From assembly GCA_018417955.1 (NCBI GenBank), contig JACTVC010000026.1:496001-560000 (forward strand): 64,000 nucleotides of DNA, read 5' to 3'. Under the pieces are notes generated by a model. The model saw only the letters and a program-made list of their open reading frames with translations. It was not told the DNA's origin and made no database searches. Source of the DNA: Laccaria trichodermophora (Eukaryota; Basidiomycota; Agaricomycetes; Agaricales; Hydnangiaceae). The position numbers and the translations under genes are program-made. Below are positions 1 to 64,000 of this stretch, one piece after another; position 1 is the stretch's first letter; every line of letters begins with the position of its first letter.

Positions 1-432
1 GAATTATATTTCAAAGGTCGCGAAGCACCCAAGGAAGTCCCATCATACTGGGCAAAAATAAGCATTGCAATTGAATACAAAGGGGTTTACAAACTTCGTG
101 TCCTGCGGGTGTCCACAATGGTGCTAGATTTACAACTCCGGGGGGAAAGCCGGAACAATGGGAATCCCGGAAGTAAGCTTCATCGTTTCGCCATGATTTC
201 CCTGCCACCGGAGGCATTGCAGCAAAGTATGGACGAAGACTTTCCAACGCAAACAAAACTCGATTCTGTTCAAGAGTATTGTCAATTCATGGGAGAATTT
301 CGAAGTTGGTCCGACATGCCTGAAGTCCCTCCGACATTGCGCCAGGTAGATACCAAGCCAGATGCCGCCCTTCTGCATCCTGAACCATCGCTGGCCTGTC
401 TTCAACAACCACGTGTGCTTTCCAAAAATTAA
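1..432 (+). CDS. Partial open frame, unrecognised
   Basis: Frame 1 is open from the first base of the window to a TAA ending at 432, giving 143 codons with no start inside the window other than an ATG at 118. It could be the last exon of a gene that starts to the left. The translation has mixed composition (for example PPEALQQSMDEDFP) and no motif I recognise. Overlapping open frames exist on the minus strand (11-256 and 130-444), so coding status is uncertain. No function is proposed. Confidence 0.25.
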   Translation, partial: ELYFKGREAPKEVPSYWAKISIAIEYKGVYKLRVLRVSTMVLDLQLRGESRNNGNPGSKLHRFAMISLPPEALQQSMDEDFPTQTKLDSVQEYCQFMGEFRSWSDMPEVPPTLRQVDTKPDAALLHPEPSLACLQQPRVLSKN

Positions 433-17677: not shown

Positions 17678-20600
17678 TTAACTACCTGATGCTCTGGATG
17701 CATCTGATACAGCCATAATATTTATATGTGCCCCTTTGTCTATGAGCAACTTTGCAATGGCATCATGGCCTCCATTTAATGCTGTCTGGAGTGCATTTCC
17801 ATACTTTCCCCCCTGTGCATTTACATCTGCCCCCTTCTCCATCAGCAGCTGTACAATTGCCTCATGGCCTCCACATGATGCTGCCTGGAGTGCATTTCCA
17901 TAGTATCCTCCCTGTGCATTTACATCTGCCTCCTTCTCCAGCAGTAGCTGTGTGATTGCCTCATGGCCTCCACATGATGCTGCCTGGAGTGCAGTTCCAA
18001 GATCCCCTCCCTGTGCATTTACATCTGCCCCATTCTCCATCAGCAACTGTACAATTGCCTCATGGCCTCTATATGATGCTGCCTGGAGTGCATTTCCATA
18101 TGGCCCTCCCTGTGCATTCAAATCTGCCCCCTCTTCTATTAGATGCTGTGCAGTTGCCCCATGACCTCTATATGATGCTGCCTGGAGTGCATTTCCAAAC
18201 TCCCCTCCCTGTGCATTTACATCTGCCCCCTTCTCCATCAGCAGCTGTACAATTGACTCATACCCTCTGCATGATGCTGCCTGGAGTGCATTTCCATAAT
18301 ATCCTCCCTGTGCATGTACATCTGCCCCCTTCTCCACCAGCAGCTGTGTGATTGCCTTGTGGCATCCATATGATGCCGCCTGAAGTGCATTTCCATACTC
18401 CCCTCCCTGTGCATTTACATCTGCCCCCTTCTCCATCAGCAGCTGTACAATTGACTCATACCCTCTATGTGATGCTGCCTGGAGTGCATTTCCATAGTAT
18501 CCTCCTTGTGCATTTACTTCAGCACCCTTCTCCAACAGCAGCTTTGCAATTGCTTCAAGCCCTCCACATGATGCTGCCTGGAGTGCATTTCCATATGTCC
18601 CTCCCTGTGCATTTACATGTGCTCCCTTCTCTAACAGCAGCTTTGTAACTGCCTCATTACCATCACGCACCCCCTTCTTTATTGACATGCCCTCAAAAAT
18701 TTTATGACCCCCAGTTGATGCTGCCTGTAATGCATTTCCAAACTCTCCTCCTTGTGCATTTATATCTGCCCCCTTCTCTATCAACAACTTCACAATGGCC
18801 TCATGGCCTTTATATGATGCACTCTGGAGGGCATTTCCATACTTCCCTCCCTGTACATTTACATCTGCCTCCTTCTGTATCAAGAGCTTGACAATGGCAT
18901 GATTTCCTCCATTTGCTGCTGCCTGGAGTGCATTTCCATACTTTCCTCCCTGTGCATTGACATCTGCCCCCCTCTCCAATAACAGCTTTGCAATTGTTTC
19001 ATAGTCACCTGCCCCTTTCTCCATGAACAGCTTGTAAGAGGTTTTATGGACTCCATATGAAGCTGCCTGGAGTGCATTTCCATACTCCCCACCCTGTAAA
19101 TTTACATCTGCCCCCTTCTCCAACAGCAGCTTTGCAACGGCCTCATGCCCTTCATATGATGCTGCCTGGAGTGCAGTTCCAAGATCCCCTCCCTGTGCAT
19201 TTACATCTGCCCCCTTCTCCATCAGCAGCTGTACAATTGACTCATACCCTCTATGTGATGCTGCATGGAGTGCATTTCCATAATTTCCTCCCTGTGCATT
19301 CACATCTGCCCCCTTCTCCAACAGCAGCTGTACAATTGCCTCATGGCCTCCATATGATGCTGACTGGAGTGCATTTCCATAGTCTCCTCCCTGCATATTT
19401 ACATCTGCTCCCTTCTCCAACAGCAGCTTTGCAATGCCCTCATTGCCTCCATTTGTTGCTGCCTGGAGTGCATTTCCATGCTTTCCTCCCTGTGAATTTA
19501 CATCTGCCCCCTTCTCCAACAGCAGCTTTGCAATTGCCTCATGCCCTTCATATGATGCTGCCTGGAGTGCATTTCCATAATGTCCTCCCTGTGCATTTAC
19601 ATTTGCCCCTTTCTCTAACAGCAGCTTTGCAATTGCTTCAAGCCCTCCACATGATGCTGCCTGGAGTGCATTTCCACACCTCCCTCCCTGTGCATTCAAA
19701 TCTGCCCCCTCTTCTATTAGATGCTGTGCAGTTGCACCATGACCTTTACATAATGCTGCCTGAAGTGCATTTCCATACGTTCCACCCTGTGCATTTACAT
19801 CTGCCCCCTTTTCTATGAGGTACTGTACCATTGCCTCATGGCCTTCATATGATGTTTCAGCCAGTCCAGTCAGTGATGCATAATATAGTGGGTCAGCAAT
19901 ATCAACCCTCTGCTTTTGTAGATCCAGATGGTGATAGTAATCCATATCACAAAGTCGAACCCAGTTCAGAAAACCAATATTTTTATCTGTCAGAAGCCTC
20001 ATCATCAACACAAATACAGCTGATGACTGAGATTTCTTTTTGCCACTAGCACATGCATGTATAATCCAATACTTTGCAGCATATTTTGCCAGAGGGAAGG
20101 ATGTTTGTCGATTTACATCCAATGGCAGAGATGTATTGAATTGCAGAAGATATGCCAGACAGACTTGACATATGACAGAGTCTGATACCTCCTTACTCAA
20201 GCTAAAGTTTCGCACTTGCATCACATCATTATTTTGAATATACCCAGATGTGAGATATTCCTTGACAGAAAAGTGGGAAAGCTTGATAACACCTGTTTAC
20301 TAGTTAGCACTCATTTCAATCTGAAATTGTTCTAAATTTTACCTTTAGATTTCACAACAAAACTAGAACAAATTTTCAAGACATCATTGATATCTTGAAG
20401 TTCATTATCAGATTTATACTCTGGTCCATTCTCAGCAGAAAGATCAACAGCAGTGGTTGCAGCCAGTTCCCTCAGACTCAGTGGAACAACTGCAAAAGAC
20501 AGCCACTGTAGGAACAATTTCACATAACCATGATCTTTTTTCTTAATCCCCAGTATAATTCGATCATATGTTTCATTCAAACCCTGAGGCAGATCATCAA

Positions 20601-42589: not shown

Positions 42590-43040
42590 TTTTTTTTCTA
42601 ACCTTTCCCCTCTTCAATTATGACTTTTTGTTTAGTATATTATCACTTTCCATATTTGGAAATGTGCACAGACCACATAAGTGGTAGCCCAACATTGCCC
42701 AGAACAGTCAACACCATGTGTATGCTTTTTCCTCCTTTTTCTATTGATTTTCTAGCTGCATTGTATTCATTATTATATGTAGAAACATGCACAGACCACA
42801 GCAACATTGAAAATAGCAGTCTACAACATATCCATTCTTTATTATGCTTTTTTTCTGATTTTCTAGCTATATTTGCACTAATTACCATAGTTGGAAATGT
42901 GCACAGACTATGTAAACAGTACCCTGACATTGACAACAACAGTTGGTACCATATTTATATCTTTTTTCTTCTCTTTATCTCATTTTCTGGCTATATTGAA
43001 TTAGTTACTATATTTGGAAATGTGCACAGACCACTTCAGT
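42590..43040 (+). repeat. Four copies of an approximately 120-bp tandem repeat
   Basis: The core TTGGAAATGTGCACAGACCA and variants occur at about 42655, 42778, 42890 and 43012, each preceded by a T-rich stretch. The array ends where the right inverted arm begins. Confidence 0.65.
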
Positions 43041-45160
43041 CACCCATTTTAGGGTACCCCTGAGGTATATGAATTCTTTGATTTAAGGGTACCTCAAGGG
43101 TACCCATTCCAGGGTGGTATGTGAGCACCATACCAATACCATGGTACCATGGAATGGAAAACCCATACCATATCCCACTCATACCAATACCAAGTTACCA
43201 TACCATACCATGTCATGTTATACCATACCAGATGGTATGATATCACTTCATACCATCATACCAAAGCTGTCACAGGGTGTCTGGGGTCCTTTTCCAAAAT
43301 ATATAAATTATTTCTGCAGGCTGCAATACTGGTCCATTGGGTGCCATTTTTTGTGGGGGGGTTCTCCAGGTTTATCCTGAGATTTTAGGCTACAAATGGA
43401 GGCCAAGTAGTCCAATCCATTCATTGAATATCAGTTCAAATGACCTTTATCCCAGCTTTTCCCATGCCACCAAAGCCATTTAATGATACCTATCTTTCCC
43501 AGTCCTTTCAATTGAAAAAATATTCAGCCCAAATAAAACAATATTACATCCATTGTGATGATGTGGTCTTTTACAAGCAAAGAACACAAGACATTTTGTG
43601 TACTATCAGTCCTGAACAATGCCTGATACCCCCCATGGGAAAAGCATGGACTTGAGCTAAATTATCATCCATCAGCCTGGACTGAAATATGCACTTCAAC
43701 TAATCAACTACTTTAACTACCACTCCACATATAATTCATTTTAAAAGCATGCAATTTGGATTCAAAAAGTGCCATGCTGTTGCTGTCAAAGAAGTAAGTG
43801 TAGACAAGTCAGAATTCACTCTGAATTGTGAAACATAAACTAAACTATTGCATGTATATCAACCACTCCAGACTTCATGCATTGAAGACTTACATACTAG
43901 AACGATGTGTTGATAGCTACTTTAACAAAGTTATGCAACAGTCATATCCTATAGGAAAGAGATCACCTCACATTTCATTCCATTTGTCATACCCCCCCAT
44001 CAAACAATCACCCCACATAGCATCCTATTGGTTACCATATAGTGTTGTCATGTTTTATATCCCTCTTTTTGGATTTGGTTTATACAAAGTGCAAGCTTCA
44101 CTCAGATGTTACATTCTTGGGTTCACCAGGTAGATGAGAAAGCAGATCTAAATTTTGTTAACCAAAAGATTACAAAGGTTTACTGAGGTTTGATTGAGAT
44201 ATTTGATCAGCTAAGAAAAACCCTGGCTCAACTGAGTCATAACTTGGCCATCTGCTAAATGTGAACAACTCAATGAAAAATCAATACTTTCAAATTTATA
44301 TGATTATACCTACCTCCTATCTATCTGAAGATTGCAAGAATGTAAAATTGCACTCTATATAAGCAAAACCAAAAACAATGAACTTAAAACATGGCAACAG
44401 TAAGTATGGTATCTACAGCACACCAAGCCCAAGGTAAAGGGCCATCCCATAGTCATACCATACCATGGTATGGACAAGTTATACCCTACCATGGTATTGC
44501 CAAGTTAGACCATACCATGGTATGGCCAAGTCAGACCGTAACATGGTATGGCCAAGTTATACCCTACCGTGGTATTGCCAAGTTATACCCTACCGTGGTA
44601 TTGCCAAGTTATACCCTACCGTGGTATTGCCAAGTTATACCCTACCATGGTATTGCCAAGTTATACCGTACCTACCGTGGTATTGCCAAGTTATACCATA
44701 CCATGGTATTGCCAAGTTATACCATACCATGGTATTGCCAAGTTATACCATACCATGGTATTGCCAAGTTATACCGTACCATGGTATTGCCAAGTTATAC
44801 CATACCATGGTATTGCCAAGTCATACCGTACCCATGGTATTGCCAAGTCATACCATACCCATGGTATGGCCAAGTCATACCGTACCCATGGTATGGCCAA
44901 GTCATACCGTACCCATGGTATGGCCAAGTCATACCATACCCATGGTATTGCCAAGTTAGACCATACCATGGTATTGCCAAGTCATACCATACCCATGGTA
45001 TGGCCAAGTCATACCGTACCCATGGTATTGCCAAGTCATACCATACCATGGTATGGCCAAGTTATACCATTATACCATACCATGATGTTGCCAAGTTATA
45101 CAATACCATACCACATTATACCATACCATGGAACTACAAGACATCATACTAACTACAAAG
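43030..45160. repeat. Right arm of the 10-kb inverted repeat
   Basis: Reverse-complement blocks of the left arm appear in mirrored order: GTACCC/GGTACC palindromic block (43040-43250), GGCTGCAATACTGGTCCATT (43318), 43.66-43.77 kb, 44.11-44.35 kb, and the CCATGGTAT satellite (44.45-45.14 kb). The two arms are diverged, with indels. Confidence 0.8.
44450..45145 (+). repeat. CATACCATGGTATTGCCAAGT satellite
   Basis: More than 25 copies of an approximately 22-bp unit based on TACCATGGTATTGCCAAGTT run head to tail. The unit contains the palindrome ATACCATGGTAT. The three parallel long open frames here (such as the one at 44391-45152) are repeat translations, not genes. Confidence 0.92.
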
Positions 45161-48300: not shown

Positions 48301-50796
48301 TTCGTGGACTCACTATGGTCACTGGGCGTCAATGTAGACTCTGTCCTGTACCCAGGACGTTGGTGGTCAATCTGTAAGTCGGCCTCTGAGTCTGGTTCGT
48401 CGTCCGGTATGCAGTGTGCCTGAGGAAGTTGATTGCCATGGATGATGTGGGCAGGTTGGCGTCTCCGATGGCTTGACTCTGCCTCCTGGCCCCCTTCTGC
48501 TTCGTGCTCTGCGTCTGTTTCGTGTCCATCGTCGCCCGTCTCTGCTTCGTCGCCTGACCCTGCTTCATCACCCAACTCTGGATCGTCGCCTGACTCAGCT
48601 TCGCCCCCTGACTCTGGTTGTGCACTAGACTGTGCTTTCTTTGCTGCCAAGCGTTTAGCCCGATGCCTTGCCAATATCTCTGCTTCCTTCCACCATACCT
48701 CCACCTCGCCAAGACGGTTCGTCGCAGGAGGGGGATCGGTGGTGTAGCCTTCGGGGAGAGCCTCCCATCATTCACTCGCCCGATTGTGCCAGCAAGTATA
48801 CTTGGTATACTGGTGGGCAGGGTGAGCATCGGTGGCTAGCCGAATTCTCGATCGATGTCCGATATAACCCATCCCTTCCATGACTCTGCCAATACGGCAG
48901 AAGTAAACCGTAACTGGATGCGGAAGAGATGACGCCGGAGGGAGGGGCATCTTATCATCTGATGGCATCGTCGAATCGAATTCGTCATCACTGGACGCCG
49001 GGTCAGGGGTCTTGGGTTCACAATAGGCCAATGTAGGATCAACAAGAAGGAGCGAGGGTACGTCGGGCCTGTTCCGTAACGTGTATAGGCCACGGGAACG
49101 AGGCTCAGCCTGAGTGGGGCCAGGAATGGGTGAAGAGGGAAAGATACCGGACGAATCATTTCTGTAGCGTAGTCAAAAACCACCCTTACTCTAATGAATC
49201 AAGATACGTACGTCGGAATGAGAGTTGACTTGATTGAAAACGTGCCCTCCATTGGGGGAGAAACTCTGACAGATGCAGAACTACAAGGCATGGTAAGCAA
49301 GAGAGGAAAATTCGTTATAAACAACGGCTCACGTCAATGTGGCCTGGACGGACAACGGCAGGCCGAAGCCAATCGAACCAGACATCCCCCTGATGCAGAA
49401 TATCAATATCGTCTTCGACAGAGAACCACATGAGCACTCACTTGCCCCCCATACTGTCAGCGCAGTGTGCAGGCATGGAGTTCTCCAGATAAGATTGCTG
49501 GATCTTCGGATCTCTGTTGAAGAACACGTCTTCAGCCGCTATGGTCAGATTGTCTATGACTCTGTGACGTTACAGTCAGTCGTACACCCGATTAATGTCA
49601 AAGTATAGGGAACCAACCGATTGGCATGGGATATAAGTTCCTGCGTAGGTGTTGCGTCTGGATCAGCAATCTTCTCCACCCTATATAGTCGTTAGAGAGA
49701 TATTGACGGAGCAGAAGCAGCGAACAAGGAGTTAACGCTGGTGACACCCGAGTGAAATGACAAGGAGTCAAATTTCACTCCGGTGAGGACTCGCCGCGAC
49801 AAAGAGTCAAACGGAGAGCCCTGAGAAAGGGAGAGAGAGATACGCACACTTGCTTGAGGCCATACATGCGGAATGACTTTGTCAGACTGAGCTTGACCAG
49901 AGCCGAGTTGGTCCCAGTCCCAGACGCCGCACCACTCCCTCCAGGGACCGCATCAGTGGAGTCATTGTGGACGAAGGGGTTTTTTCCGTCGTCAACGATC
50001 CCCTTCAGTTGATCGGAATCCAGCAACTGATTGGCGTCGTTCCCATCTTGGTTGTCCATGATCACGATCAGACTCGCCCCACCCCGGATGAATCGCTAAC
50101 GAGACCTCACCTGATGTTGTCCGCAGACTTTTCGGGTTCAGAATCACTTGGTAGAATTTTTGTTTCTGCCTTGGACTTGTTTCTGCACCCAAACATTACT
50201 TCGTTGATTTCCCTTTAGAGGCAAACACATACTTTTTGGCCCGACTAGGCCTGGAACGTGCCGGAGTAGGGGTGTCGTCGACGGCGGTGTTGACTACAGC
50301 CTCCGAGTTTTTGGGGTCCGACTGACTTGGTAGATTCTTCTTTACAGGCTTGGCTTTATTTCTGCAACAAAACATTAGTTCGTTGGTTACCCTTGAGCGG
50401 CAAACCTACTTTTTGGCCCGACTAGGTTGAGCAGCAGCCGGTGTAGGAGCATCGTCGACGGTGGTGTTGACTACAGCATCAGCGACCTTCCTGACTTGGG
50501 TACGAAGGCCTGTGGCCTGAGTTGGTGCAGTCTTCCCGACGACATCACCGCCAGTCTCAGCATCTGTCACACTGAAATATGTTGAGGTGAAAGTTTTCGC
50601 TACCAAGGGTAAGACCATACCTATCGTTTTGTGTGCTTTGTGCTGCCTTCACCGCTCCCTTCTGCAATAATATTTTAACGACGTGGCAAACGGTGGCAGA
50701 GGAGTCTCTAACCTTGGTGGAAGCATTGCCTCTACCCACCACGGGGGGTGGAACGACAACAGGCTTACGAGAGCGAAGTTGACGAGGTTCTGACAT
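45395..50796 (-). CDS. Large multi-exon gene, unknown function
   Basis: Coding exons read leftward from an ATG at 50796 (MSEPRQLRSRKPVVVPPPVV) to a TAG near 45395. Early exons are short and basic; two are tandem copies (AVVNTTVDDAPTP..PSRAKK and AVVNTAVDDTPTP..PSRAKK) with similar introns. The middle (47.6-48.7 kb) encodes a highly acidic region (GDEAGSGDEAETGDDGHETD) and then a conserved-looking block (NVSLACQPSWWDIWQMYLRI) continuing through 46.5-47.6 kb (WSAQAAVMYKQL, ECAGPEIASASALWANFF). The C-terminal exon (46501-45395) has KR-rich, RGG-like and Gly/Arg/Tyr-rich low-complexity segments. Nuclear localisation is likely from the basic patches. I do not recognise the family; it may be specific to mushrooms. 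Not all exon borders are certain. One intron (49681-49847) carries three hairpins described separately. Confidence 0.6.
49681..49847 (-). other. Triple-hairpin intron A
   Basis: The intron is 167 nt (donor GTGCGT, acceptor TATATAG) inside the 45.4-50.8 kb gene. Hairpins lie at 49790-49818 (stem CTC-CCG with one mismatch), 49750-49780 (9-bp stem GAGTGAAAT/ATTTCACTC) and 49718-49740 (stem CAGCG/CGCTG). In sense orientation the first two share the core TTGAC-TCYTT-GTC. The third reads TTAAC-TCCTT-GTT, with both sides of the inner stem changed together. Confidence 0.8.
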
Positions 50797-51718
50797 TACA
50801 GTTGTTACGGTTGGTATTGGCTTTTTGGTTCAAAATTCGAGGGCTTTTTTCTGAATGGGAAAGGTCAGAGAGGCGTAGACTGAATTTCTAATATATATTC
50901 ATCTTTTTACTTATGTGAGGACAAAACCAAGCTAACCCAAAGGGAAATGTTGTTGCATGTTAGGCATGTCAGGGTGAATGTTGCGCTCCATCAGTGGCTA
51001 CAGTTGGAATACATTGTAATGACGAGACGCAAGTCCCTAATCTCGGGGTCAGCTCTCAGCAATAATTGGGCGGATCGGACATACTCAATAGCTTGCACGA
51101 CGGATATGTATAACTGACTAGCCATAGTGAAGAACTTGGCTGATACCTTAAACTAGGCATTGGCATTCAGGTTCTGAAATAGATATATCCGATGAGCGCA
51201 TCTAGGCAGGTTATCAAGGCCAACTTACCCTGCCAAAAGAGAGAGAGACCTACAAGTAGGTGCCTAAACAAGGCCAAGGAACAAATCGCTGCATAGCGTC
51301 TGGGCTATTGTTGCGTCGAATTCGACGGCCAGCCACATGAGTGGGTGCAGGGTTGACGATAGCAATGCCAGGCGAGCTTCCGTAGCACTAGGTTGGCCGT
51401 TGACGGTGAGATTGACAATAGAGGGAAGCGTTTTCCTGGATTGGCTACCGCAAGCAGCAACTTGAAGGGCTGCGGTGTTGACTATCGCATTACTGCCAGG
51501 GGTATCCAGAGCACTACACTTCCAGGTGAGACAAGCGGGGTTAATGAAATGGGGCCAGATTACCTCTCACGTTTGCGAGGGCAAAGTCGGCAGGTTTCGT
51601 ACTTGTTGTGATCAAAAAGGTGGATCGGAGTGTGCGCAAGCGATAGAGGTCCCGGAATAACCAGCTCAAACGGCGGGCAGCATTGGTCTGAAAGATTAGC
51701 GCAAGAACTGCCTCCGAT

Positions 51719-51898
51719 CTGTGTGAAAACAATTAGCATTGAATTCAACCCGGCCCTTTGAGAGAATAGCGGCGACAAAGAGTCAAACCGCCAGAAAGAA
51801 AGGCTGACAAGGAGTCAAAGCCTTCGCAACAAGGACGACAAAGAGTCAAGTCCATGTGCGCCAGAAGGGAGACAAAGTAAGCCAATCGAAGTACTTAC
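51719..51898 (-). other. Triple-hairpin intron B
   Basis: The intron is 180 nt (donor GTAAGT, acceptor CACACAG). Hairpins lie at 51833-51853 (GGAC/GTCC), 51800-51824 (AAGGC/GCCTT) and 51769-51791 (GCGG/CCGC), with cores GACTCTTTGTC, GACTCCTTGTC and GACTCTTTGTC in sense orientation. The last hairpin ends 50 nt before the acceptor. Confidence 0.8.
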
Positions 51899-51986
51899 GT
51901 TTGTAAGAGGCGGTGGAATAAGGCGCATGAACGGGGGGCAAGCATTGGCCTGACATGATAGAATGGGATAGCGTAGGAACACCGAT

Positions 51987-52166
51987 CTGTTTCCAAACAA
52001 TTAGCATTGACTTCAACCCGGCCCTTTGAAAGAATAGCGGCGACAAAGAGTCAAACCGCCAGAAAGAAAGGCCGACAAGGAGTCAAAGCCTTTGCAACAA
52101 GGACGACAAAGAGTCAAATCCATGTGCGCCAAAAGGGAGACCAAGTAAACCATTCGAAGTACTCAC
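51987..52166 (-). other. Triple-hairpin intron C
   Basis: The intron is 180 nt (donor GTGAGT, acceptor AACAG). It is a close duplicate of intron B. Hairpins lie at 52101-52121 (GGA/TCC, with the fourth pair broken), 52067-52093 (AAAGGC/GCCTTT) and 52037-52059 (GCGG/CCGC). Confidence 0.8.
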
Positions 52167-52243
52167 GTTTGAAAGAGGGCGGCGGAATAACGAGCTAGAA
52201 GGGCAGGCAGGAAAGGACTGACAATAGTGAAAGAGCATCCGAT

Positions 52244-52426
52244 CTGTTAGAAAACAATGAGCATGGTCTTCCATCAGGCCGTTTGAGAGAATAGCAGCGA
52301 CAAGGAGTCAAACCGCCAGAATGAAAGGCCGACAATGAGTCAAGGCCTTCGCAACAAGGACGACAATGAGTCAAGTCCAGGTGCGCTAGAGTAAACACGA
52401 AGAAAGCGAAATGACTCGGTACTCAC
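52244..52426 (-). other. Triple-hairpin intron D
   Basis: The intron is 183 nt (donor GTGAGT, acceptor TAACAG), a more diverged duplicate of B and C. Hairpins lie at 52358-52378 (GGAC/GTCC, loop TCATT), 52325-52349 (AAGGCC/GGCCTT, loop TCATT) and 52294-52316 (one mismatch in the outer stem). Confidence 0.8.
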
Positions 52427-52489
52427 GTTGGACGAAACCAGAAAGGATCCTGAAGCCAAAAAGAGAGGCGTCGCCGGAGGGGGGGGAGT

Positions 52490-52600
52490 GAGGGAAGAGG
52501 TGAGTTAGCGTGGCTTTGAACGATGATGGATGTTCGACATGGGATCAGATTTGATAAGATTACTAATTACATACTCAGGCTTTGTGAACACCTTCGACTT
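52490..52600. promoter_or_regulatory. Likely divergent promoter region
   Basis: Minus-strand introns begin at 52426 and plus-strand intron E begins at 52643, so transcription must diverge between them. Hairpin motifs switch orientation across this gap. No clear TATA box was found. Confidence 0.4.
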
Positions 52601-52642
52601 ATGCTGCTCGTTGTCCACTGCATCGCATCCAAAGTACCATAG

Positions 52643-52824
52643 GTGAGTTATGGAGCATTGGGATCATTAACTCCCGGGGTTTGACTCGTTGTCGTCCCGT
52701 GGAGGACGGACCTTGACTCCATGTTGGTCTGTGCTTAGGTCGAGTTTGACTCTTTGTCGCTCGCCTAGTTGGTCCATTCACTCCCATAGGGTATTGGCGC
52801 TGACGTGTTAATCGAATCTTTTAG
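52643..52824 (+). other. Triple-hairpin intron E
   Basis: The intron is 182 nt (donor GTGAGT, acceptor CTTTTAG). Hairpins lie at 52675-52699 (CGGG/CCCG plus a G-T pair, loop TCGTT), 52706-52732 (7-bp outer stem with one G-T pair, inner stem GAC/GTT, loop TCCAT) and 52736-52767 (CGAG/CTCG extended by TAGG/CCTA after a one-base bulge, loop TCTTT). Confidence 0.8.
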
Positions 52825-53795
52825 GTATCACGGTTACTTTGCACCTGGTTTCCCGGCGCCAATGGCAAACCACTTTCCTCAACGCGCACGTTGCAGGTCC
52901 CAGCCTCTCCCGCTCAACCAAGGCCGCTTCTTCAAGCGGCATGTCCCTGCATGTTTCATCTTCACCAAGACCTCAGCGCTGATGCCGTTCGTTGTAGGAT
53001 CTTTGCACAACATGCTTCCCCGCGAGACATTTGAGGTTTCCACCGCTTCATGAACGACCTAGTACGTTACAAGCGCCATCGATCCCCCCTAGTGCCAACC
53101 GTCGTTCAGATCTACGCTGCCAACGGTGGTACTCTACCTGGTGCCGGCTTAACAGCAGCCAAACCCAATGGTGTCCACTGGCCCACGAAGATCCTCACCC
53201 CCAGCCGGTCAATCTCTCATCACCTTCCCACACCTCCAAACCCGCCTCATATCCTCGATTCGAGTCCAGAACGGCGTATCACCCCTCCACCTCCTCCCCA
53301 ACGTTCCCATACAAGCTTCAACACCCAATAGCCTCGCCCTATGCCTTGCGCTGCGCCCCCTCAATATCTGACGCCACATGAGAAAAGCCCGCGATCGTCA
53401 ACCCACGTCCCCAATAGACTATATTCACATCATGTCGCCGCTTGTCCCTGTCCCAGGATATGGCTTCCCAGCTCACTATTTGCAGGACTATACCCCAGTT
53501 CATCGGAGGCCGTCTAATGGTGTCTATGTATTTCTTACGTAGGCGGAGTGGGGTTTCACAAGTGGTCTTGCGTAGTCTCGAGACGATTCCTTTTCCGTAC
53601 CTCGGTCTTACATACATGTTTCGTAGGTATAACGTAGGTACGACGTACTCGGCATTTGGAGTTGTTGGCACTTATTGACGCGTCTGAGGTTCACGTGATA
53701 CCGCTGAACAACGTGATTGGTGTTGATCAGCGGCGTCCTACCTCTCCATCTTCCTCGAAGTCGGCGATAGCTTGCGTTCGGCGTGCATCAAGACA
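52825..53795 (+). other. Exonic or intergenic stretch with short open frames
   Basis: It lies between introns E and F of the plus-strand unit. Open frames are short (to a stop at 53053; 53050-53331) and have no recognisable motif. It could be a long non-coding exon, or hold the 3' end of one transcript and the start of the next. Confidence 0.35.
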
Positions 53796-53979
53796 GTGAG
53801 TATTCCGTTGCTTCATTATATCCTTTCTTTGAGGAACTTGACTCCTTGTCGTTCCCTGGGATTGGTTGGATTTTGACTCCTTGTCGATCCACCATCTCTC
53901 CTTCCTGAGTTAGACTCCTTGTCGCTCAGTTTTGGTTCGCTTGGCCACATACTACATATACTAATCTGTTCCTTCGTAG
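53796..53979 (+). other. Triple-hairpin intron F
   Basis: The intron is 184 nt (donor GTGAGT, branch-like CTAAT, acceptor TTCGTAG). Hairpins lie at 53833-53855 (GGAAC/GTTCC), 53867-53891 (TGGAT/ATCCA) and 53905-53929 (CTGAG/CTCAG). All three have loop TCCTT and inner stem GAC/GTC. Confidence 0.85.
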
Positions 53980-54204
53980 GCGTTGGCGTGCAACCGTTAT
54001 TGTTTGCCCTTTCAAACCAATACTTCCTCGATTGGTGAGTGTGTCATGTTGGTATGTATTCTCATACTGATCAGTCGATCCCTTCGTCTTCAGCATCATT
54101 CCTCTTTCCTTGGAACCTACAAGCCCCAACTCTCTGGACCTTCGACAGCCGCTCTCTCGCATCTGGCAACCCACTCTAGTGTCATATCAACCCGATTCTG
54201 ATCG

Positions 54205-54390
54205 GTGAGTGGTCGTCCACTGGATTCCGCCCTGTTCTAGCACGGAATTTGACTCCATGTCGTTCCGTTGGAGGATGTATATCTTGACTCCTTGTCGATA
54301 TACGTCCTCTCCTCGTGTTTGACTCTTTGTCACACGAGGTTCTTTCAACAATCGGGACTATGATTCATGTAATTCTGACTGTATCACTAG
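54205..54390 (+). other. Triple-hairpin intron G
   Basis: The intron is 186 nt (donor GTGAGT, acceptor TCACTAG), ending two bases before the ATG of the downstream gene. Hairpins lie at 54242-54268 (ACGGAA/TTCCGT, loop TCCAT), 54271-54309 (13-bp outer stem with one G-T pair) and 54311-54339 (7-bp CCTCGTG/CACGAGG, loop TCTTT). Confidence 0.9.
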
Positions 54391-54392
54391 CC

Positions 54393-57300
54393 ATGGCCGA
54401 TACTACTACAACACAAGATACGAAACCGCACTACAAGGAATACACCCGTGAATCGGACAGGGAATTCCTCGCGACGGATGCCTACTGTTGGGAGGTGATA
54501 GATCGCAAGGTTTGGACGAATGAGGTTGTGAGTGAGGCGGGGATCAACACTTTCATCGAACATCCAGACAAGCTCGACCCCGCCTCCTGGTGGGTTATCA
54601 CTACTCCGAACGCGGGTTACATCCCCACTGCTCCCATCGGCATTCGTCATATTCAAGCGAAGGCTGATGGCCGCTTTGGACTAGACGACCGGACCCTCCA
54701 CCCCCAGATGTACGTCAAAGGTTTCGAATACATCTGCTGCATCCCCCAATGCGATCAGTCTCGCCACATGTTGTGGTGGACACCCACCCTCGCTGATTGC
54801 CCTATGATTCCCAATTCGCCGTTCTCGATCTCCATTTGCGTTCTCAAGCCGGAACTCCTGAACGGGTTCAAGGACCTTCGTGACAAGTATGTTGGTCTGA
54901 TTGGAAAGCGTGAGGGACGCGACTGCTCCCCTCTTGCGGGTCTTTTGGTTACCACAATGTGTCAAGCGCTTGATAGGCTTCAATCGTTCGGCATGACTTA
55001 CAAAGAAGTCCTACTTGCAGTAGCGGAATTCCAGAGAGCTGTCCTTGACATCCATGCGTGGATCGATTTCGTAGACGTCTATCAACCTCGTCTGTATCCT
55101 GGACCCAACGGCGTGGTGAAGTACGAGGCCAGTCAGGATTTGATGGGTGCTGTCACCGAAAAGGTTCAGGTCGCCCAACAACTGCAGGCGATGGGGATCC
55201 CTGTATGGCTAATCCGCCCCTCATTTCGAATCCTCCCCACCATGAATGTCAACGTCCAATCTCCCCAGTTACATTGTAAGATGATTGTTCTTGATCATTT
55301 CAGGGATCGTGAGGCACTAGTATCTACCACTTTTTATGATAAAATACAGTCAAGTGCCTGCACAACTTTTTGGTAAATGGCACTGTGGTCTTATGAAATG
55401 AGAAACATGGGGGAAATCTAATGAAACATGTTTCATTTTTGGCCCAGACCATTTCATATATATCTCATTGTTTCCCTAGCAATATTTCTTTGCCATTTCT
55501 TTCCCATTTCATTGGCTGACTGGCTATATTTCTTTTCCATTTCATTGGTTGCCTGGCCATATTTTTTTTCTATTTCATTGTTTCCCTAGCAATATTTCTT
55601 CGCAATTTCTTTCCCATTTCATTCATATTTCTTTCCCATTTCATTCATATTTCTTTTCCATTTCATTGTTTCCCTAGCAATATTTCTTCGCCATTTCATT
55701 CCTATTTCATTGGCTGCCTAGCCATATTTCTTTCCCATTTCTTTTCCATTTCATTGTTTCCCCAGCAATATTTCTTTGCCATTTCATTGGCTGCCTAGCA
55801 ATATTTCTTTCCCATTTCATTGGCTGCCTAGCCATATTTCTTTCCCATTTCTTTTCCATTTCATTGTTTCCCCAGCAATATTTCTTTGCCATTTCTTTCC
55901 CATTTCATTGGCTGCCTAGCCATATTTCTTTCCCATTTCTTTTCCATTTCATTGTTTCCCCAGCAATATTTCTTCGCCATTTCTTTCCCATTTTATTGGC
56001 TGCCTGGCTATATTTCTTTGCCATCTTGTCAGGGTCCATCCAATGGGTCATCAGGAGGGTGGTCACATGACCAATTTCCTAAAATGGTCAAAATACAAAA
56101 TTAATAGCCCTGAATTGTAGCTTTCAGAATCTGTTTGAATTATGTTCTAAAGTGCTCTCATTGTGGAGATATGAGGCAAATGAATTTTTACAGCACTGGC
56201 TTTTTTCAACCTTTTTGTCTTTTTCTCCAGGAAAACAACACCAAACAATATAATTTTAACATATTTAGAAAGCTAAGAAAAGGGGCTACAATTATCATAT
56301 TATAGAAAAATTGACTCAAAAAGGAAGGTGCATAGCCTAAAAGGGACATGCACACTAGTAGACTACAAAAGTCAGACCTAGACTAGAAATTTTACCAATA
56401 GGTTTACCAATAGATTACAAAAGTCAGACATAGAATACAAAAATGAGTAATGCACTACAAAAGACTACAAAGAGCTGGACATAGACTACAAAGTTTACTA
56501 ATGGGCTATGACAGACTTCAAGAGTTGGACATACACCACAAAATCCGCTTTTCTCATTACAAAAGTTTTAGTGTCTGCTTTTTTCATTACAGCAGTTTGT
56601 AGTGTCCGCTTTTTTTATTACAACAGTTTGTAGTGTCCACTTTTTTTATTACAACAGTTTGTAGTGTCCACTTTTTTTATTACAACAGTTTGTAGTGTCC
56701 ACTTTTTTTATTACAACAGTTTGTAGTGTCCGCTTTTTCATTACAACAGTTTGTAGTGTCCAATTTTTTTATTGCAACCGTTTCTAGTGTTCGCTTTTTT
56801 TATTACAACAGTTTGTAGTGTCCAATTTTTATTGCAACAGTTTGAGTGTCCACTTTTTTCATTACAACAGTTTGTAGTGTCTGCTTTTTTTATTGCAACA
56901 GTTTGTAGTGTCTGCTTTTTTTGACTACATCAGTTTCTAGTGTCCGTTTTTTTAGATTATGACAGTTTGTAGTCTTCCCTTTTTTGGACTACAACAGTGG
57001 GTAGAATCCACTTTTTTGGACTACAGCAGTTTACAATATCCACTCTTTAAGACTACTAAGTTTGTAGTCTGCTTTTCTGACATTTAGTTTGTAGTAGGTA
57101 TGGGTTTATGACATGTGAGATGAATTGACTCTGCCAGTTATGCCCAACTTGTTGTCTTTCACATCAGTGGTGCCTGTCTCTCTTTTCAGCTGACCAGCCA
57201 CTATCCCATCTCTCTGGACTCAGTCAAACATCTATTGATATCAGTAGCTACTGTCCTATAATGAGTGTCTCTCATTGGTCTTCTCTGTCAAGTCAAATTA

Positions 57301-60300
57301 TGATAAGGTTTCACTGTCCAACCATTCATCCTAGCCAATCTTCACTGAAAGCCATTCAAGAGTACTAGGAGTGAACAATGAAAGGTTGTCTATTCCTATT
57401 ATGTTCTTAGTCTACTCAGGTGAATACAAGCTGGAATCTGGTGAATCTTTTCCAGGTTGACCATGAGTAGAGCTGTTGTTCTTGAAAACACAGTGCAGGC
57501 TCCACTGGTATGAAAGCCAACAGTTGGGCATGACTGGCAAAAGTCAACTCATCTCACATGTCATAAACCCATACCCACAAACTAAATTAGAAAAGCAGAC
57601 TACGAACTTAGTAGTCTTAAAAAGTGGACATTGTAAACTGATGTAGTCTAAAAAAGCAGAGACTAGAAACTGTTGTAATAAAAAGAGCGAACACTAGAAA
57701 CTGTTGGAATAAAAAAAGCAGACACTACAAGCTGTTGTAATGAAAAAAGCGGATGCTACAAACTGTTGCAATAAAAAAATTGGACACTACAAACTGTTGT
57801 AATAAAAAAAGCGGACACTACAAACTGTTGTAATAAAAAAAGCGGACACTACAAACTGTTGTAATGAAAAAAGCGGACATTACAAACTGTTGTAATAAAA
57901 AAAGTGGACACTACAAACTGTTGTAATAAAAAAGCGGACACTACAAACTGTTGTAATAAAAAAAGCGGACACTACAAACTGCTGTAATGAAAAAAGCAGA
58001 CACTAAAACTTTTGTAATGAGAAAAGCGGATTTTGTGGTGTATGTCCAACTCTTGAAGTCTGTCATAGCCCATTAGTAAACTTTGTAGTCTATGTCCAGC
58101 TCTTTGTAGTCTTTTGTAGTGCATTACTCATTTTTGTATTCTATGTCTGACTTTTGTAATCTATTGGTAAACCTATTGGTAAAATTTCTAGTCTAGGTCT
58201 GACTTTTGTAGTCTACTAGTGTGCATGTCCCTTTTAGGCTATGCACCTTCCTTTTTGAGTCAATTTTTCTATAATATGATAATTGTAGCCCCTTTTCTTA
58301 GCTTTCTAAATATGTTAAAATTATATTGTTTGGTGTTGTTTTCCTGGAGAAAAAGACAAAAAGGTTGAAAAAAGCCAGTGCTGTAAAAATTCATTTGCCT
58401 CATATCTCCACAATGAGAGCACTTTAGAACATAATTCAAACAGATTCTGAAAGCTACAATTCAGGGCTATTAATTTTGTATTTTGACCATTTTAGGAAAT
58501 TGGTCATGTGACCACCCTCCTGATGACCCATTGGATGGACCCTGACAAGATGGCAAAGAAATATAGCCAGGCAGCCAATAAAATGGGAAAGAAATGGCGA
58601 AGAAATATTGCTGGGGAAACAATGAAATGGAAAAGAAATGGGAAAGAAATATGGCTAGGCAGCCAATGAAATGGGAAAGAAATGGCAAAGAAATATTGCT
58701 GGGGAAACAATGAAATGGAAAAGAAATGGGAAAGAAATATGGCTAGGCAGCCAATGAAATGGGAAAGAAATATTGCTAGGCAGCCAATGAAATGGCAAAG
58801 AAATATTGCTGGGGAAACAATGAAATGGAAAAGAAATGGGAAAGAAATATGGCTAGGCAGCCAATGAAATAGGAATGAAATGGCGAAGAAATATTGCTAG
58901 GGAAACAATGAAATGGAAAAGAAATATGAATGAAATGGGAAAGAAATATGAATGAAATGGGAAAGAAATTGCGAAGAAATATTGCTAGGGAAACAATGAA
59001 ATAGAAAAAAAATATGGCCAGGCAACCAATGAAATGGAAAAGAAATATAGCCAGTCAGCCAATGAAATGGGAAAGAAATGGCAAAGAAATATTGCTAGGG
59101 AAACAATGAGATATATATGAAATGGTCTGGGCCAAAAATGAAACATGTTTCATTAGATTTCCCCCATGTTTCTCATTTCATAAGACCACAGTGCCATTTA
59201 CCAAAAAGTTGTGCAGGCACTTGACTGTATTTTATCATAAAAGTGGTAGCTACCACTCCGTGAGGGCAATTTAGACCCATACCCTGTTCTGGCGACTGGT
59301 CCACCCTCGTCCGAACTTTACAGGTGGACCCAACGTATAGGCTGCGCAATTATGGACCTTCAAAATGTCACTGCAATTGGTCAACAGGACTTTATCGAGG
59401 GGAAAGCCAGTATTGGGGCAGTTCGAGATGAATGTAAGTTTTCAGCTTGTAATGATGCAACCCAATTCACAAACCTCAATGCAGATTCTATTCCTGTCCC
59501 GTCCGCTGCTGCGTTGTCGTCCGCGGGGAAAGTTGGACCATCTGGTTGGTGCTTTCGTATTTCTTTCTATGTAACCTTAGAGGCTAATATCAACTTTTTC
59601 TTTCAGCTTATTTGTTACCATCCAGTGTTGGACAACAACCCTCATCGTCCTCACAAGGTGGAACTCGCTATTCTAACCTTAGCATGGGACAACAACCTTC
59701 ATCATCCTCGGAAGGTGGGTCTCGCTACTCTAACCTTAGCATGTGTAGTAATTGTGAATCCTGGCAGTTCTGCTCTCTGTGGCCTCTCACCAGCTGTCCC
59801 GACGCTCCTTGGTACCATCCAACCCACCGGTCATGCCCAACCCACTGGTCATGCCCAACCCAACATGCCATGGTCCTGGACCTTCGAAGCGCCCTCGCAT
59901 AGCTGATGCGAAGGTTGCTGATGACAATTCTCCCTTCATGCCTGTACCCGTACCCATGTGGGCCAAGGCTTTACGAAACATAGATACCGATCCTCGTCGT
60001 TTGAAACGTCTTCCGGGGAATGTGGTAAACATCGGGTACAAGTATCCGAAACCAGATATCTTCTTGAACTCCAAGAATCGCGCATTGTACACTGCTACTT
60101 GGCTGGCAATCCGTGCCCATCATGCATACACACTGGCAACGGGAACCGAGCTACCGCCACCGATCACTGCCCAACAATGGCGGAATTTCCTCATGTGAAT
60201 CATGCCCTTCCTGGATGCCGAAGACATCGATTATACAGCTAATCTTGAAGATACCACTGCCGTACCGTCGCCTCCCCAGCCTGCCACGAAAGGAAAACAG

Positions 60301-61176: not shown

Positions 61177-64000
61177 ATGGCTTTCAACAAGAGCCGTTAC
61201 TTGGGCAAGGCTGGGATTGCTATTGGGTCTCCATCATTGAAGAAGAAGTCCTCAGGTCATACTTGGGCTTCTACTAGTGACTCTACTGTGTCCCGTCGTC
61301 CTTATGGGTTGCCAGGTATACAGATCTTACCTAGGAAAGACTTGACCACTCCTCTGGGGTCATTTGTTCAGATTTCAATGCCCACTGGGGCTGATTTGCA
61401 TGATGCTGCTGCTGCTGAGGATGATTTATCTGACACCTCAGGTGGTGACTCTGAGGATTCTGTTGAAGTTTCTGCCAGTGATGTCCTTCACCCTTTGGTG
61501 TTTCCTGCAGAGCAAGTTTCCCCAAAGAAAAGATTAGACAAAAAGTTGGCCTTGTGGAGGAACTGGGCTTTGAAACTGATCCCTGAACTTTTGGATCCTT
61601 ATCTGGGCTTGTTGAGGGAGTCTGAGAATTTGAGGAACATAGATAGGAGATTACCTCATTGTTCTTGCAATGGGACTGGGCATAAAATGAATGTTATTGC
61701 TGTGTTTTTTGAAAGTGAGTTGCTTTTTCATTAAAATATCAACTTGTAATAATTTACATCCATCTAAGAACTTGTTGCTGTGGAAGTCTGTTCTTGCTCT
61801 GCAGTTTTTCAGCTCTTGGCCATGGGTTTGTTTCCAGCCTCACCCCTTCGACCAACATTAGCTGTGGATTTGAATATGCTTGACTTTGTAAATGAGCTTT
61901 TTGTTCGTTCACCTCCAAACACTACTGCATGGTGTGACTCACTTGAGGCATTTCTGGGTTCTCGCACCTATAAGCTTGAGAGTAGAGATGCCATAAGGCG
62001 TCGCTTTGGAAATGCACTACAGTGGTATGGAAATCTCATTTCCCAGAAAGAACTTTTGATATCTGGGGTTATAAATGAGGGTCGTCTAAATTGGCTCAAG
62101 GAGGCTGGGTCTCCACTTGAATCAGATAATATAGACAGGGTAGACCAAAACTATGAACCTCCACCTTCTTCTAGTCCTACTTCAGTGGCAGATAATGCTA
62201 GTGATGATTCTCATGAGAGTCAGAATACTACAAACTCTGATTCTGATATTCCTCGTCCAAGTGAGTACTTGCGGAAGCGATGCCCTCTCTGTTTTGGTGG
62301 GGATAATCCACATGACCCAAATTTTATGTAAGTGATGTTTTAAAAGGGGTCGAAAATAGGTTCTGATGACTGGTACATTTCAAGGGCGGATGTCATTGTA
62401 TGCATTGATGCTTGTTTTACTCACAAGAGAAGAAACCCTGCAAAAGGTGAGGCAAAGGGACCTGAAAATCTGCATCCTGATACAGTATTTGTGCCTGAGA
62501 AATATGTAATGGAGATGAAGGCTTTAGTTGAGACAGTTCGACCAGAGAAGTCAAAAGGAAAAGAAAAAGCTAATGTACCATCTGATGGACAACCGGCTGA
62601 AGACTCATATGAACCTGGCATGAAGGTCCCTGTCTCAGCTTTGGAGGGATGCCTGGCCTCCTTTATTGCAGCAGATGAGAGAAGAACTAAAGCCAGCACA
62701 CAGTTCTTTGCAGATACAGGTCTTATGGCCATGCTGTGTCGTCATGACCATGTTCTCTGGCTAGTAAACATGACTACTGCTGGAGAACGCCAATACTATG
62801 CTCTGGTATTGATAAAAATGCTATTTATGAATTTGCCTTTATCAATGACAGTTGGAATTTTGTATGACATTGGATGCCAGTTGGAGAGAAGTTGCCAAAT
62901 CTGGGGGTTTCTGGAGGAATTCATGGAAAGAATCCTTTTTGCACTTGCGGTTTTCCATGCATATGGTCACCAGTGGCCCTGTCAACTTGTTTATCATCCT
63001 CGTAAATGTGAAGGGTTTGGCCTCTCAGATGGTGAGGGTTGTGAACGTTTCTGGAGTGCTATCAAGTTATTAATCCCTTCAATGCGTGTGGCAGGGGTAA
63101 GTGTTCATCTCATATATATGTGAAGATAATCTGATAATTGAGCCAAATAGTTCTATCATCGGCTGTTTACCATTGATACTCAGGTCAAGCATCTGGATAA
63201 AAAGTCTTTTGATATGATGGGTAAATGGCTTCAACGCAAATGGTTGACTTGCTTGGAAAGAAAAATTGAGGCTGAAGATATTCTCAATGAACTGGGGTTT
63301 GAAATTTCTTTGCTTGAAAATGAATGGAAGCAGCAAGTGGCGACACAGACCAAGCCCTTGGCACGACAATCAAAGAATATTGCAAATATTGCAATTAAGG
63401 AAATTTTGGCATTATATACTGCAAAGAAAAGTTTTGCAATGGAGTTGGGAGGGCTTGATGACCAGCTAATTTCTGGGGTCTATGGGGATGATATGTCAGT
63501 GGAGGATGTTTTGGCTGCACGTAAAGCAATCATGAAGAAGCAAGGTGTGATTGATGCAAATATAAAGACAAAGAAGAAAAGGCTGGGGGTTAAAGATAAG
63601 GAAGATTTGAAAAGGTTGATGGGCAATAAGTTTCTTCAATTGAAACTTAATGCCAGGGCTCTTAAACAAAGACTCAGAGATCGTTTAAGAAATCGTAAAT
63701 TTGAATTGGAAAGGTTAGAGAGAGCATATCGACAAACAACTTCCAATGGTAAGGAGTTTTTATAACACAGACCACTCACTCTTCGTTGACTTCTATTTAA
63801 TAGAAACTAAATTACATTCGCATGTCCAGAAACAAGTCAATAGGCAGCAACCAACAATTGCTAGATTGGCAAAAAAGTACAATGACATGTGCTATGATAT
63901 GACAAAGCAAATCCAGGAGGGAAATGCCCCTGGTAATTCTATAGCCCCTGTGCCAATCAATCGAGAGCATTTATTCGCTCTAGATGTGGATGATGACATC
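61177..64000 (+). CDS. KDZ transposase, CxC1-like, 3' end outside window
   Basis: This is a DNA transposase of the Kyakuja-Dileera-Zisupton type with an RNase-H-fold core. Exons joining in phase are 61177-61714, 61805-62327, 62385-63096, 63184-63748 and 63804 onward. The N-terminal part has SKRPYG-like basic patches and HCSCNGTGHK. A Cys pair CPLCFGG (about 62280) leads across an intron into MADVIVCIDACFTHKRR, with the first catalytic Asp. Later come LCRHDHVLWLVNMTTAGERQ, GILYDIGCQLE (Asp) and GLSDGEGCERFWSAIK (Glu), the expected order of the core. The C-terminal part is Lys/Arg-rich and helical, then KLHSHVQKQV and LFALDVDDD at the window edge. No stop or frameshift is seen, so this copy may be active or recently so. 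The sequence is notably CpG-poor. Confidence 0.85.

Follow-up and report, generated by a model that had tools for sequence, protein, structure and literature searches.

In a 64,000-nucleotide stretch of the Laccaria trichodermophora genome (contig JACTVC010000026.1, positions 496,001 to 560,000; hereafter the window), seven predicted introns of a multi-copy KDZ-type DNA transposon carry 21 copies of one hairpin, located at 49715-54339 and arranged in seven groups of three. The initial annotation of the window had recognised both the hairpins and the introns, while it had missed that this region lies in the interior of a 23-kb KDZ element, to which the introns themselves belong. Covariation among both paralogous and orthologous hairpins confirms its suggestion of selection for a structure whose loop is fixed. 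We propose, with a probability of about one half, that the hairpins serve as cis-acting RNA sites controlling the removal of the introns, and that an element-specific factor binds them in threes.

All 21 hairpins, nine on the forward and 12 on the reverse strand, could be aligned on the core without gaps, and each consists of a variable outer stem, a two-nucleotide 5' bulge, a GAC/GUC inner stem and a UCNNU loop, with the outer 3' arm following directly after the inner stem without any 3' bulge. Minimum-energy folding returned the 3-bp inner stem and the 5-nt loop in 21 of 21 cases. The architecture first described thus held for the inner stem, the loop and the variable outer stem, but not in two details: the bulge, given as two or three bases, has two in every window hairpin (TT, with TA in one of the 21, when the outer stem is extended ungapped), and the outer stems measure 4-14 rather than 3-13 bp. 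Likewise, the G described as preceding the closure of the outer stem is present but is part of the first outer pair, which among 155 distinct hairpins from the genome is mostly U-G (85) or C-G (38). In 180 distinct strict hairpins drawn from 19 copies, T occupies the first bulge position in all 180 and the second in 149. Two reported departures from the inner stem were also found, namely a GAC/GTT stem with a G-U pair in hairpin P1b and an AAC/GTT stem at 49718-49740; since the latter is kept in 11 of the 11 tabulated orthologous hairpins, it is probably a single old double change. An Rfam search of 43000-64000 gave 10 matches at E<=5, none of which reached the gathering score of its family; one such sub-threshold match, sR45 (E 3.4), overlaps 49727-49807 on the opposite strand. 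The hairpins, named after their introns and each detected as a covariance model match, are as follows:

52673-52701, forward strand, hairpin P1a
52705-52733, forward strand, hairpin P1b, GAC/GTT with G-U
52738-52766, forward strand, hairpin P1c
53830-53858, forward strand, hairpin P2a
53865-53893, forward strand, hairpin P2b
53903-53931, forward strand, hairpin P2c
54241-54269, forward strand, hairpin P3a
54276-54304, forward strand, hairpin P3b, 14-bp outer stem
54311-54339, forward strand, hairpin P3c
52354-52382, reverse strand, first Mt intron, hairpin a
52323-52351, reverse strand, first Mt intron, hairpin b
52291-52319, reverse strand, first Mt intron, hairpin c
52097-52125, reverse strand, second Mt intron, hairpin a
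52066-52094, reverse strand, second Mt intron, hairpin b
52034-52062, reverse strand, second Mt intron, hairpin c
51829-51857, reverse strand, third Mt intron, hairpin a
51798-51826, reverse strand, third Mt intron, hairpin b
51766-51794, reverse strand, third Mt intron, hairpin c
49790-49818, reverse strand, hairpin MLa
49751-49779, reverse strand, hairpin MLb
49715-49743, reverse strand, hairpin MLc, AAC/GTT

As the initial annotation had stated, pairing in the outer stems is kept while their sequence varies. In the window, 101 of the 105 outer cells (pairs 1-5) are paired, as compared with 63.0 +/- 3.9 (maximum 81, 20,000 permutations) when the 3' arms are swapped among hairpins. Over the 155 distinct hairpins, 736 of 775 such cells (95%) are paired, 613 of them by Watson-Crick and 123 by G-U pairs, versus 60% with the arms shuffled (mean 467 of 775). 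We also scored an alignment, A1, containing 62 hairpins (60 distinct) out of the 74 present in four copies, namely the window and the loci L033, L039 and L045. Two of the 12 omitted hairpins have a mismatched first pair (L033:4095 and L045:3378), so A1 leans slightly toward structure; this notwithstanding, the all-inclusive count of 155 hairpins agrees with it. In A1, 95.0% of 540 cells are paired versus 71.2 +/- 1.2 after shuffling, both sides have changed in 138 cells versus 37.6, and the covariation score is 0.679 versus 0.197 +/- 0.017, with 0 of 500 shuffles reaching it and slid versions scoring at most 0.162. Covariation therefore holds beyond the copies in the window, and in our judgement covariation this strong is unusual for an intronic RNA element.

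Moreover, RNA rather than DNA is favoured as the selected form, because, in all 21 cases, the hairpin is found on the sense strand of the gene that contains it, and because G-U exceeds A-C beyond the shuffled ratio, which fits selection on one strand, the transcript. Among the 155 distinct hairpins, we counted 123 G-U versus 13 A-C cells in pairs 1-5 (shuffled, 182 versus 79) and 38 versus 9 in pairs 2-5 (shuffled, 98 versus 73). Counting each distinct position-pair type once gives 31 to 10, or 19 to 7 without the first pair. These last figures are small, and the ratio should not be taken as a probability, since the copies are related and hence not independent. Of the two possibilities raised at the outset, an RNA element is thus favoured and a single-stranded DNA recognition site disfavoured.

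The structure has also been kept between distant subfamilies of the element. We compared subfamily A (the window copy and L033) with subfamily C, represented in the main identity comparison by L045, and found identities of 0.73-0.82 in the outer-stem arms, 0.58-0.59 in the linkers and 0.50-0.51 in the intron parts flanking the hairpins. Sequence on either side of the hairpin array was 0.50-0.55 identical in five comparisons of A or B with C, the value for random 40-mers being 0.47, and synonymous differences in the P gene, which holds three of the introns, are saturated between the compared copies (pS 0.79-0.84, protein identity 0.75-0.77). In the 108 cells of orthologous stems compared between the window and L045, 68 are the same, 11 have changed on one side, 13 have changed on both sides yet remain paired, 13 are broken and 3 are unpaired in both, while the subfamily C copies with intact loci (L041-L043, L045 and L046) retain 18 of 18 hairpins. 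Simple inverted duplication at insertion sites leaves the compensatory changes between orthologous hairpins unexplained.

The hairpin introns belong to two genes, M, which runs leftward, and P, which runs rightward, with a short divergent region between them. Their predicted parts in the window, each intron with three hairpins and called from splice signals, are the following:

52643-52824, forward strand, intron P1 (GTGAGT..AG)
53796-53979, forward strand, intron P2
54205-54390, forward strand, intron P3, ending just before the P start codon, called also from the frame
54393-55373, forward strand, first coding exon of the P gene (MADTTTT..), interrupted by an insertion at 55319-59260
52244-52426, reverse strand, first Mt intron
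51987-52166, reverse strand, second Mt intron, a tandem duplicate
51719-51898, reverse strand, third Mt intron, a tandem duplicate
49681-50796, reverse strand, part of the M gene with its start codon (MSEPRQ..) at 50796, containing the coding intron ML
49681-49847, reverse strand, intron ML in the coding sequence, its last hairpin AAC/GTT, called also from the frames

The long hairpin introns measure about 165-190 nt, and the triplet lies between the donor and the branch-point region; in the window, a GTGAGT, GTAAGT or GTGCGT donor stands upstream of the triplets and a branch-point-like motif with AG downstream. In the copies scanned, the donor is located 33-54 nt ahead of the first core. ML interrupts conserved coding sequence, and the Laccaria bicolor gene-model protein P0004 reads, at the protein level, as joined at the place equivalent to P3. 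In L033, the M gene has eight further introns of 48-56 nt (read by eye), none of which contains the core, and its ML (163 nt) has three. Named protein relatives of the P gene occur in L. bicolor and L. amethystina, and more distant ones in other agarics. The Mt introns are mutually similar in the window (scores 51-81 versus shuffled maxima of 20-26) and in L033 (score 51). Outside the hairpins, no clear similarity beyond that of shuffles was detected among the P1, P2, P3, ML and Mt introns, nor between the two Mt introns of L045, and the hairpin module either represents old duplicates that lost all else or was acquired more than once.

That the hairpin region lies inside a KDZ element follows from homology to other copies on both sides of it, from inverted ends with a target-site duplication (TSD) and from a KDZ transposase exon. 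The corresponding features are:

43032-64000 of the window and on to base 66249 of the window joined to locus L051 (L051:2249), no strand assigned, KDZ-type DNA transposon, from its ends, terminal inverted repeats (TIRs) and TSD
61768-62331, CxC1 domain just upstream of the transposase exon, E=2.2e-6
62344-63123, forward strand, KDZ transposase exon (PF18758), E=1.7e-56

The left end of the element, CACTTCAG.., is at 43032 and the right end, ..CTGAAGTG, at 66249, beyond the window; both carry TIRs of about 540 bp with 91% identity, and the TSD, CACAGAC, read in one copy, is 7 bp long (or 8-9 bp under another way of counting the end base). A subterminal minisatellite occurs near both ends in inverted orientation (window 44453-45131 and L051:888-1284). 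Homology to the other copies extends from window 48154, the left limit of the loci (in L031), through the hairpins to the right end of the window, and its continuity is broken by a 3.9-kb insertion in the window copy and, between subfamilies, by unalignable stretches. This nested insertion (55319-59260) has TIRs of 1,315 bp with 100% complementarity and contains 31-bp tandem repeats; it disrupts P in the window copy and is absent in L031-L034. KDZ matches in the genome number at least 182, a count based on scoring 150 of 355 candidates, so the hairpin element is one lineage among many KDZ elements. A PF18758 match is listed within about 20 kb of 17 of the 19 hairpin-bearing copies, L037 and L041 being the exceptions.

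Further copies of the hairpins do exist in the genome. A search with the P exon listed 23 places, and among the window and 20 loci grouped hairpins were present in 19 (18 of the 20 loci) and absent in L035 and L036; 10 of the 19 copies have at least 18 strict hairpins, the remainder being decayed or truncated at the end of a locus or contig. Of the 105 groups that have two or more strict cores, 96 have exactly three and nine have two, with none exceeding three, and the core-to-core spacings are 24-41 nt. The covariance model R1, built from 62 hairpins that include the 21 of the window, which therefore match by construction, gave 21 matches at E<=1 in the 64-kb window and no others, and it gave no match in the three of three isolated core matches read (L019-L021), the truncated copy L035, L036 or L051. 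Across the 59 Mb of the genome, the core pattern was matched 305 times and its reverse 27 times, and two tandem cores occur 185 times versus 0. The 100 listed of the 185 tandem places fall in fetched copies, in an extra partial copy at C1:16-18 kb (99% to L039) or at the unread places C14:522384-522729 and C17:884291. The hairpins are thus restricted to the KDZ element for the places read rather than for the whole genome, a statement that rests on listings of 100 of the 185 tandem places and 100 of the 305 core matches, with single core matches on C8, C9, C12 and C14 left out. C14:522384-522729 contains two tandem core pairs spaced like the Mt introns of subfamily C, with no listed P exon or KDZ match near, and is probably a fragment. 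The subfamily C copies L041, L042, L044 and L045 (on C77, C63, C6 and C1) are close to the end of a contig or sit on a small one, and may be subtelomeric; a similar copy, L043 (C10), is not near a contig end.

We propose that the hairpins act in cis as RNA elements in the pre-mRNAs of P and M, the divergent accessory genes of the transposon. A fixed bulge and loop on a stem of free sequence has the look of a hairpin read by a protein, and the UU-bulged GAC(UCNNU)GUC hairpin would be the recognition site of an RNA-binding factor. Three sites in an intron could make binding cooperative or all-or-none, and binding would control the removal of the long introns and with it whether the proteins of the element are made. 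The presence of three hairpins per intron in seven introns of two divergent genes, with no host site seen, suggests a dedicated factor acting jointly on the introns, and as the hairpins have been seen nowhere but in this element, an element-encoded and so autoregulatory factor is more probable than a host protein with other duties; the P and M frames and the P model yield no candidate. Splicing control would be the simplest output of an intronic site, for which work on the P element (PMC7776569) and on structured fungal introns (PMC8216456) offers precedents. A more specific version, in which the transposon encodes an RNA-binding repressor or activator that recognises the hairpin at three sites in every long intron of both accessory genes, and through this intron-operator system senses its own dose and sets its expression by splicing, is possible, though we would sooner expect it to be wrong. 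No account of a mobile element with one hairpin present three times in every long intron came up in full-text literature searches. If splicing is indeed controlled in this way, KDZ elements, abundant in this genome, would possess a copy-number or tissue-sensing switch, and the hairpin with its factor would make up a new RNA-protein pair comparable to those employed as molecular tethers.

Several observations weigh against this proposal. By the covariance model, the KDZ transposase gene in the window has no hairpins, so any control would be indirect. The seven introns were called from splice signals and, for ML and P3, from the flanking reading frames, not from transcripts, and a crude splice scan of 42 introns in eight copies located an acceptor and an accompanying branch motif in 32 (the nearest acceptor being 42-66 nt past the last core in 30 of them, and 75 and 94 nt in the other two) and none in ten. 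The same kind of scan did not find a GTGAGT-like donor for P3 in subfamily C (L045, L046, L048 and L049), where P3 as an intron is unproven. None of the P and M frames tried has a Pfam match above the cut-off, no RNA-binding domain was recognised in them (one M frame has two weak matches below the cut-off, E 0.12 and 0.17), and a P protein model (mean predicted local distance difference test score 62) gave no Foldseek hit at E<=0.001. Identity between subfamilies A and C at the nine core positions counted (161-162 of 162) is largely forced, because the search pattern fixes six of the nine; it means that every one of the 18 hairpins is kept in intact copies, and does not mean that variants are absent. 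In decayed copies, cores are lost. Finally, the comparison of hairpin DNA covers copies of one genome.

The hairpins might instead only compact the introns, shortening an over-long intron to the donor-branch distance of a usual 50-nt intron with no protein reader. Their position between the donor and the branch region, their presence in seven long introns and absence from the eight short ones read, and a folding that clearly beats shuffles in two of three introns (z -5.45 and -4.59, versus -1.98 for the remaining one, minus its first 19 bases) all agree with this. Compaction, however, needs stems of any sequence, and leaves unexplained both why the bulge, inner stem and UC..U loop hardly vary where divergence is saturated and why there are three hairpins; we consider it unlikely. 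Nothing would demand confinement to three per intron, either, if the introns released a structured RNA (a sponge, a guide or a small-RNA source) acting in trans, for example against host silencing, with the hairpins protecting or defining that RNA. The 18-21 repeated cores of an intact element would raise the dose of one binding motif, but the stems are short (4-14 bp), unlike the usual small-RNA precursors, and we regard this as quite unlikely.

An introner-like origin, in which the module marks an intron multiplied within the element and the structure serves multiplication and not gene control, could account for the Mt introns, tandem duplicates in the window and alike in L033. We consider it improbable, as the P1, P2, P3, ML and Mt introns are dissimilar outside the hairpins, the two Mt introns of L045 are so too, and the hairpins have been maintained long after any duplication. 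A motif read at the DNA level by a transposase or replication protein, either in the DNA or as an extruded single-stranded hairpin, would suit a DNA transposon, and some transposases do read single-stranded DNA hairpins. The hairpins of this element, however, are not near its ends, lie only in introns in the window copy and always in the sense strand, and the excess of G-T over A-C is not favoured by a double-stranded cruciform, which leaves a DNA site very improbable.

Control of the introns by a factor bound at the hairpins would resemble that of the P element, a DNA transposon whose expression is limited by controlling its own intron, IVS3, via RNA-binding proteins (PMC7776569). In IVS3 control, a single intron is regulated through a short exonic silencer bound by PSI, hrp48 and the U1 small nuclear ribonucleoprotein, whereas the KDZ element has seven introns with three structured sites each and a putative factor. 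Structured introns and leaders of fungal mRNAs (PMC8216456) share with it a covarying RNA structure, but those of Ascomycota genes have one structure each, some thought to be bound by the encoded protein, whereas here a mobile element contains 18-21 copies of a single hairpin. Fungal introner-like elements and internally symmetrical stwintrons (PMC8469720) are likewise repeated introns with a predicted stable structure; they share sequence along the intron and are spread over genes, whereas the KDZ introns share the hairpin core only and are seen only in the element. Likeness over the length of the intron was found for the Mt introns only, in the window and L033 and not in L045.

Among KDZ superfamily elements, Kyakuja (Kojima 2025, PMC12730594) resembles the Laccaria element in its KDZ transposase domain, CA..TG ends and 7-bp TSD, the last read here in one copy. 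In the same source, whose main text has 0 occurrences of the term 'hairpin', the two L. bicolor families Kyakuja-1_LB and Kyakuja-2_LB carry TET/JBP and have no TIRs, whereas our element has TIRs and no TET/JBP match inside. It thus lacks the gene of a TET-bearing DNA transposon, none of the 76 PF12851 matches in the genome being at C19:539032-562249, where the element lies, and differs from those two families in its TIRs of about 540 bp (91%). One TET/JBP match crosses the left edge of the window (window 1-47, C19:495544-496047). Just to the right of the element, an ankyrin-repeat-like frame was seen by eye at L051:6206-6928, and similar DNA is present at window 17718-19854.

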